DNA of 64,000 nucleotides from Sphingopyxis sp. (GTDB lineage: Bacteria; Pseudomonadota; Alphaproteobacteria; Sphingomonadales; Sphingomonadaceae): the NCBI RefSeq assembly GCF_019459305.1, contig NZ_JAIBES010000139.1, forward strand, positions 1 through 64,000. The letters are read 5' to 3'. The translations under genes and the position numbers were made by a program. Positions 20,615 through 22,047 of the stretch are shown piece by piece (positions within the stretch are counted from its first letter, which is position 1; each line of letters starts with the position of its first letter). The notes beneath the pieces are model-generated. The model saw only the letters and a list, made by a program, of their open reading frames with translations, did not search any database and was not told the origin of the DNA.

Positions 20615-21820
20615 ATGAACATCCACGAATATCAGGCGAAAGAACTGCTCGCGAAATATGGCGTGGCGGTGCCCAAGGGCATCGCCGCGATGAGCGTCGA
20701 GGAAGCCGTCGCCGCGGCAAAGCAGCTCCCCGGGCCGCTCTATGTGGTGAAATCGCAGATCCACGCGGGTGGTCGCGGCAAGGGCAAGTTCAAGGAGCTC
20801 GGCCCCGATGCGAAGGGCGGTGTCCGCTTGGCCAAGAGCATCGAAGAGGTCGAAGCGCACGCCAAGGATATGCTCGGCAACACTCTGGTGACGATCCAGA
20901 CCGGCGATGCGGGCAAACAGGTCAACCGCCTGTACATCACCGACGGCGCCGACATTAAGCAGGAATTCTACCTTGCCCTGCTCGTCGATCGCGGTTCGAG
21001 CCGCGTTGCGATCGTCGCGTCGACCGAGGGTGGCATGGACATCGAAACCGTCGCGCACGACTCGCCGGAAAAAATCCACACGATCACCATCGATCCCGCC
21101 ACCGGCCTCCAGCCGCACCATGGCCGCAGCGTCGCCGCGGCGCTTGGCCTGTCGGGCGATCTGGCGAAACAGGCCGCCAAGGTCCTGGCCGGTTTGTACG
21201 CCGCATTCCTCGGCACCGATGCCGAACAGATCGAAATCAACCCGCTCGCTGTGTGCGAGGGCAAGGACGGCGACGAGCTGCTTGTACTCGACGCCAAGGT
21301 CGCGTTCGATGGCAATGCGATGTTCCGCCACAAGGATCTGGCCGAGCTGCGCGACCTGACCGAAGAAGACCCGGCCGAGGTCGAGGCGTCGGAATATGAC
21401 CTCGCGTACATCAAGCTCGACGGCAACATCGGCTGCATGGTTAATGGCGCGGGCCTGGCGATGGCGACGATGGACATCATCAAACTGAACGGCGAATTCC
21501 CCGCCAACTTCCTCGACGTCGGCGGCGGCGCGAGCAAGGAAAAGGTCACTGCGGCGTTCAAGATCATCCTGAAAGACCCCGCGGTGAAGGGCATCCTCGT
21601 CAACATCTTTGGCGGGATCATGAAGTGCGACATCATCGCCGACGGCATCGTCGCGGCGGCGAAGGAAGTGAATCTGTCGGTGCCGCTGGTTGTTCGTCTG
21701 GAAGGCACGAATGTGCAGCAGGGCAAGGATATCCTGGCCAATTCGGGACTGCCGATTGTCGCCGCCAATGACCTGGGCGATGCGGCGAAGAAGATTGTCG
21801 CTGAAGTCCGCGCGGCATGA
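20615..21820 (+). CDS. sucC: succinyl-CoA ligase (ADP-forming) subunit beta
   Basis: [54 protein letters not shown]. Confidence 0.95.
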
Positions 21821-21827
21821 TGTAATT

Positions 21828-21976
21828 GCCTCTCCCCTTGGGGGAGAGGGTTACGAAGACTTGCGGACTTGTCCGCTAGTCGAAGCTGGGAGAGGGTAAC
21901 GTCAGTCACCGATCCTCACCAAGCCCGACTAGGCAGCAAGCTGCCAAGTCTCCCTCCTCTCCCCCAAGGGGAGAGG
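21828..21976. repeat. REPIN-like inverted doublet with covarying internal hairpins
   Basis: Terminal arms CCTCTCCCCTTGGGGGAGAGG / exact reverse complement; internal hairpins GCGGAC-TT-GTCCGC (left) and GGCAGC-TT-GCTGCC (right, reverse complement) in conserved AGACTT...TAGTCG flanks. Confidence 0.8.
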
Positions 21977-22047
21977 TGTCAGGTTGACGTTTACGTAAGC
22001 GCGAATTATGGCGCAGTGCACAATTTGCTGAGAGGAGCCAAGAGCCC

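Follow-up and report, generated by a model that had tools for sequence, protein, structure and literature searches.

The window analysed here, i.e. the whole 64,000-nt stretch of Sphingopyxis sp. DNA, contains a spacer between the end of the sucC open reading frame (position 21820) and the start of etfB (22048). This spacer, from the sucC stop codon to the etfB start, harbors a complete inverted-doublet element of 148 bp (21829–21976). The element begins with CCTCTCCCCTTGGGGGAGAGG at 21829–21849 and ends with the exact reverse complement of this sequence at 21956–21976, so that the inverted-repeat boundaries reported in an earlier note on this DNA are present as a 21-nt repeat; its right end, 21976, was correct, and its left end, 21828, was placed one base too early. 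Each of the two 21-mers is a hairpin by itself, i.e. the left outer hairpin P2 (21829–21849, plus strand), which has the form CCTCTCCCC-TTG-GGGGAGAGG, and the right outer hairpin P2′ (21956–21976, minus strand). Within the window, the 21-mer is confined to the element even when up to three mismatches are allowed (0.01 expected).

The outer hairpins enclose two inner 26-mers, which are imperfect palindromes of the form AGACTT-N6-TT-N6-TAGTCG. The left inner hairpin P3 (21857–21882, plus strand) has the variable stem GCGGAC/GTCCGC (21863–21868/21871–21876), the right inner hairpin P3′ (21926–21951, minus strand) has the variable stem GGCAGC/GCTGCC (21932–21937/21940–21945), and all positions of both stems are paired. 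These are the only two instances of AGACTT-N14-TAGTCG without mismatches in the window. As previously claimed, both arms have the same flanks and the same TT loop, while the stems differ at four of the six positions with exact compensation. Three further pairings are absent from the earlier note, i.e. the self-pairing of the 21-mers, an outer stem GACT/AGTC that flanks the variable stem (21858–21861 with 21878–21881), and a central stem. The latter, P1, is imperfect and lies together with a short spacer in the central region (21885–21924), where the left-arm tail GCTGGGAGAGG and the right-arm tail GATCCTCACCAAGC are able to link the two arms of the element. The element is predicted to fold much better than shuffled sequences, with z values of −8.0 for RNA and −7.2 for DNA.

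Shortly 3′ of the element, TTGACGTTTACGTAAGCG is found at 21984–22001. It is retained with minor changes in nearly all sucC-etfB spacers that were compared, and it looks like an operator or a part of the promoter of etfB, possibly of the LiuR type.

A dispersed repeat family of Sphingopyxis

The genome under study (3.97 Mb, 99.96% complete) contains 21 places that match a simple sequence pattern of the inner hairpin, about 15 of which are clear hairpins by eye. A covariance model, R1, is based on 38 units from this genome and from relatives. These units were chosen by their flank sequence and by the borders AG-N-CTT and TAG-N-CG, while pairing of the stem was not required. R1 has 41 matches in the genome under study (E values up to 0.1), including the left unit (21825–21898, plus strand, 81.4 bits) and the right unit (21910–21981, minus strand, 61.5 bits) of the sucC-etfB element. 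Across the genus sample, 35 of 36 genomes contain matches, ranging from 2 to at least 81 per genome, and two single-contig genomes have at least 148 and at least 150 matches, respectively. Sphingopyxis italica also carries an element between sucC and etfB, in which the right stem is identical and the left stem differs. The element in the window is a single copy from a non-coding family of palindromic repeats that is dispersed in Sphingopyxis and has a REP/REPIN-like layout. One unit consists of an outer pyrimidine/purine hairpin and an inner hairpin with a variable stem, and the full element consists of two inverted units and the central stem. The doublet is not obligatory everywhere, as about one third of the sampled loci (61 of 191) contain a single unit. 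A search of the open-access literature revealed no paper on this family. A phage or plasmid origin was also considered and rejected; no phage match was found, and the single plasmid match was 66 nt long and located on a Sphingobium plasmid.

The pairing of the variable stem is retained while its sequence changes. In the 38 units, 96.3% of the stem cells are standard pairs, and both sides are changed in 77 cells, compared to 22.8 cells in shuffles. The covariation score is 0.546 for the true partners, 0.136 for shuffles, and at most 0.091 when the partners are slid by one to three columns. The outer pair 35/58 covaries as well, being A-T in 32 units and C-G in 5 units. R1 yielded a larger set of 391 distinct units, in which Watson-Crick pairs make up 3398 of the 3490 stem cells (97%) and G-T pairs another 44, and there are 33 distinct 5-bp stems with full pairing; this set is biased towards paired copies because R1 encodes pairing, while the set of 38 units is free of that bias for the variable stem. 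The additional genomic copies and the stem covariation that the earlier note had suggested looking for thus both exist, and broken pairing in other copies, which it had named as evidence to the contrary, is rare.

Its view that structure rather than stem sequence is under selection is the natural reading of the stem changes, with either RNA or single-stranded DNA as the selected molecule. Selection at the RNA level predicts an excess of G-U over A-C pairs in the sense of transcription. The non-Watson-Crick stem pairs comprise 27 G-U and 16 A-C, or 17 and 12 without the position beside the T-T mismatch; this excess is weak and partly reflects a preference, at one position, of the unit’s own strand. 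The ratio leans weakly, and not decisively, towards RNA-level selection. The suggestion that the hypervariable stem could act as a barcode did not hold, because stems recur (GGCAG in 66 and GCCAG in 46 of 323 units) and the same stems are present at multiple loci and in multiple species.

Genomic positions and turnover

Genes were called by a codon-usage heuristic, and orthologous loci were counted separately. Of 145 classifiable elements, 113 are situated between tandem genes, 19 between convergent genes, and 13 between divergent genes. Elements follow the upstream stop codon at a median distance of 5 nt (15 nt or less in 103 of 151 cases), and the median distance to a start codon is 33 nt.

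The comparison of 79 sucC-etfB spacers of the genus revealed that short spacers of about 100–115 nt nearly always contain one GC-rich hairpin 3′ of sucC, and that most of the long spacers of about 220–275 nt contain the doublet. A tree of the flanks, which is based on 270 columns and weakly resolved, requires at least 23 changes between filled and empty spacers, and neighbors on the tree carry other arm combinations, or the same combination in reversed order. When filled and short spacers were compared by eye, the shared repeat was the element’s own end hairpin, and no separate target-site duplication was seen.

Several spacers deviate from these types. Three of them (L113, L241, and L243) contain a lone end hairpin of the family type with the usual flanks, which fits a deletion between the two end hairpins, and these lone hairpins are apparently leftovers of a lost doublet. 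In two further spacers (L112 and L211), an inner hairpin is swapped for CCCCGGATCAAGTCCGGGG or its complement, a palindrome that looks like a second, unrelated palindromic repeat. One spacer of 324 nt (L209, genome G077) is devoid of the element and apparently has a short open frame inserted into it.

Unlike arms within one element

All 153 adjacent unit pairs have the same inverted arrangement. The 5-bp stem is never the same in both arms (0 of 153 doublets, compared to 13.0 expected from random dealing), and the outer pair is alike in both arms of 27 doublets, compared to 64 expected. For complete or near-complete genomes only, the number of stem matches is 0 of 48 (4.05 expected, P 0.011), and for the newest independent set alone it is 0 of 23 (1.91 expected, P 0.12); these and the following P values from shuffles are indicative, as shared ancestry is ignored. 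When arm classes were defined by flank, outer pair, and tail, both arms belonged to the same class in 0 of 153 doublets (14.8 expected). Shuffling of the stems within fine arm classes resulted in 4.89 expected matches versus none observed (P 0.0034), and removal of duplicate combinations resulted in 4.38 expected versus 0 of 121 observed (P 0.0054). The difference between the arms could reflect history, i.e. two old arm lineages, instead of selection. The within-class shuffle, which ignores phylogeny, argues against such a history as the whole story. For the tails of the two arms, which make up the central stem, the within-element likeness is 7.21, slightly lower than the shuffled value of 7.93, and a perfectly paired center is thus unsupported.

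We tentatively propose, as a quite possible interpretation, that each doublet obeys an orthogonality rule, i.e. the two hairpins must pair with themselves and must not match each other, so that the stems diversify in the form of matched pairs. Such a rule would follow if selection acted against a long perfect palindrome or in favor of two independent local hairpins, and the agent that spreads the elements would not be a RAYT transposase. That the arms never match is the part of the results that is unexpected to a specialist. It offers a direct, testable constraint on the purpose of the structure, and it makes the family a natural data set on the bacterial tolerance of near-palindromes.

Taken as a whole, the observations may well be best explained by a 3′-UTR palindromic repeat, in which each arm folds locally and the heterology of the stems prevents the formation of one long perfect palindrome. 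The element would be transcribed together with the upstream gene, and its hairpins would represent the 3′ end of the sucC message, where they could block 3′ exonucleases or act as a transcription barrier, similar to the 3′-end role that has been reported for REP elements of Escherichia coli and Stenotrophomonas. An inner hairpin that folds on itself would allow stem changes only in pairs. With the same stem in both arms, the two halves could pair over some 70 bp and form one long near-perfect palindrome, which would be genetically unstable and would lack the two local hairpins, so that elements with unlike stems would persist. Recombination between family members, or a further enzyme, could account for the spread and the replacement of copies, and deletion between the two end hairpins could lead to collapse to a single outer hairpin. 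An intrinsic terminator was also considered and rejected; no T-run is present 3′ of the hairpins, and a search for terminator-like sites revealed none.

The compensated stems could instead have arisen by mutation and recombination without selection, i.e. by template switching at hairpins or by gene conversion that swaps whole stems. Hairpin swapping by gene conversion, as well as palindrome-correcting template switching, would yield compensated stems in the absence of any selection on RNA. This explanation is compatible with the observations that relatives differ at the sucC-etfB site by whole arms and by arm order, and that two spacers have the quite different palindrome mentioned above in place of an inner hairpin. 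We regard this explanation as rather unlikely, because broken stems are rare among the 391 units, one-sided changes that leave a wobble pair are present as intermediates, and blind conversion would sometimes make both arms alike, which was never observed. Far less probable is a structured trans-acting or cis-regulatory RNA (a riboswitch, an attenuator, or a small RNA) that is specific to the etfB or the sucC transcript. The strong predicted fold, the paired covariation, and the position in the sucC 3′-UTR would be in agreement with such an RNA; however, the element is also found 3′ of many other genes, both arm orders occur at one locus, and no Rfam family scored above its gathering cut-off (the whalefall-1 family was matched with 17.4 and 15.9 bits, the cut-off being 37).

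Relation to known repeats

REPs are defined by a conserved 5′-terminal GT(A/G)G next to a palindrome (PMC3686654). In the Sphingopyxis family this head is missing, and the inner hairpins are flanked by sequences of the TTGCGA, ATAGGGA, or GCAGCGA type. The family shares with REPs a palindrome of variable base composition, a high copy number, and, according to the heuristic gene calls, an almost exclusively intergenic location. A cognate RAYT gene flanked by the repeats was found neither in the genome under study nor in the genus genomes searched. REPINs consist of two REPs of the same class whose ends pair in one long hairpin, whereas the arms of the Sphingopyxis element never share class or stem; the outer ends of the element are nevertheless still able to pair. 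The REPs and REPINs of Pseudomonas and Stenotrophomonas are likewise small, intergenic, high-copy palindromes with paired variable stems, and the REPINs are likewise doublets in inverted orientation, with a spacer of lower conservation (PMC3686654, PMC3116915). The Sphingopyxis family differs from them in that it has no GT(A/G)G and, even at high copy number, no RAYT gene, contains two hairpins per unit, and always has unlike arms.

The usual explanation for REP-type repeats is a RAYT transposase. No match to Y1_Tnp (PF01797) was found in the genome under study. In 24 other genomes of the genus, Y1_Tnp is present in three, with a frame of 226 residues in G002, which is a RAYT-like length, and shorter frames in G004 and G021. 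Among 14 further genomes, most of which have high copy numbers, only G063 has Y1_Tnp, and both genomes with at least 148 copies are without a match. The stretches around the Y1 genes of G002 (4.2 kb), G063 (two genes), G004, and G021 contain no convincing unit, the sole match having 11.5 bits (L466). The surroundings of the RAYT-length Y1 gene (L255, G002:C1:3249000-3253200) contain different inverted repeats of their own, of the CAATTACGGTGACAG type, and no unit of the family. As a present mover, a RAYT is ruled out for the genomes tested, in which the Y1 gene is missing or has no convincing adjoining unit, and a present RAYT does not account for the high-copy genomes.

The family could still be a genuine REPIN/RAYT system, i.e. 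REPs that had been moved by a hairpin-recognizing Y1 HUH transposase, which has since been lost from most genomes. The layout of inverted doublets of small intergenic palindromes with high copy number and paired variable stems is that of REPs and REPINs (PMC3686654, PMC3116915), and abundant REPs have also been reported in strains that have lost the cognate RAYT (PMC3686654). We consider this improbable, as Y1_Tnp is missing from the genome under study (99.96% complete) and from both single-contig genomes that have 148 or more copies, the stretches searched around the Y1 genes of G002 and G063 yielded no convincing unit, the GT(A/G)G head is absent beside the palindrome, and the arms are never alike. 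Of the assignment to REPIN/RAYT-type elements in the earlier note, the inverted-doublet layout was confirmed; the predicted transposase gene was found neither in the genome under study nor in 13 of the 14 further genomes. The family is REP/REPIN-like in appearance and is not a member of the REP/RAYT group, as judged from the head sequence and the RAYT gene. A high-copy, genus-wide family without RAYT, even in complete genomes that harbor 148 or more copies, implies that another route of spread exists or has existed.

The BIMEs of Escherichia coli are mosaics of inverted palindromic units (REPs), which are located between genes in 3′-UTRs and can combine mixed unit types in one element. The mosaic, the place in the 3′-UTR, and the mixed unit types are shared with the Sphingopyxis family, while the unit sequences are unrelated; to our knowledge, a rule that inner stems must not match has not been described for BIMEs. 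MITEs are likewise short, non-coding, and dispersed, with inverted termini and with presence or absence at one site. The Sphingopyxis family has terminal inverted repeats as well; in contrast to MITEs, it showed no clear target-site duplication, and no parent transposon could be assigned to it.

Related repeats are found outside the genus. Three genomes from other families of the order (G033, G036, and G039) contain a single unit that is closed by CCCTCACCC and GGGTGAGGG and encloses a longer inner hairpin in addition to the outer hairpin. In these genomes the unit closes its own stem, whereas in Sphingopyxis the stem is shared with a second unit. At the level of the class, CCCTCACCC-N1-4-CCCTCTCCC is present in 31 of 142 genomes, and the backward control was almost empty, with one match (in the genome under study). 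No established name was found for these repeats. They have the outer hairpin and the closing stem in common with the Sphingopyxis element, and the class-level examples that were inspected lack the inner variable hairpin. Judged from these sequence similarities, the Sphingopyxis element resembles a palindromic repeat that is widespread in Alphaproteobacteria, in a doublet form that has inner hairpins, and it may have descended from that repeat. Inverted doublets of CCCTCTCCC hairpins with the CCCTCACCC closing stem and without an inner hairpin are seen at loci L390–L408 (G113, G140, G154, and G167), and the doublet arrangement in G113, G140, and G154 resembles that of Sphingopyxis.
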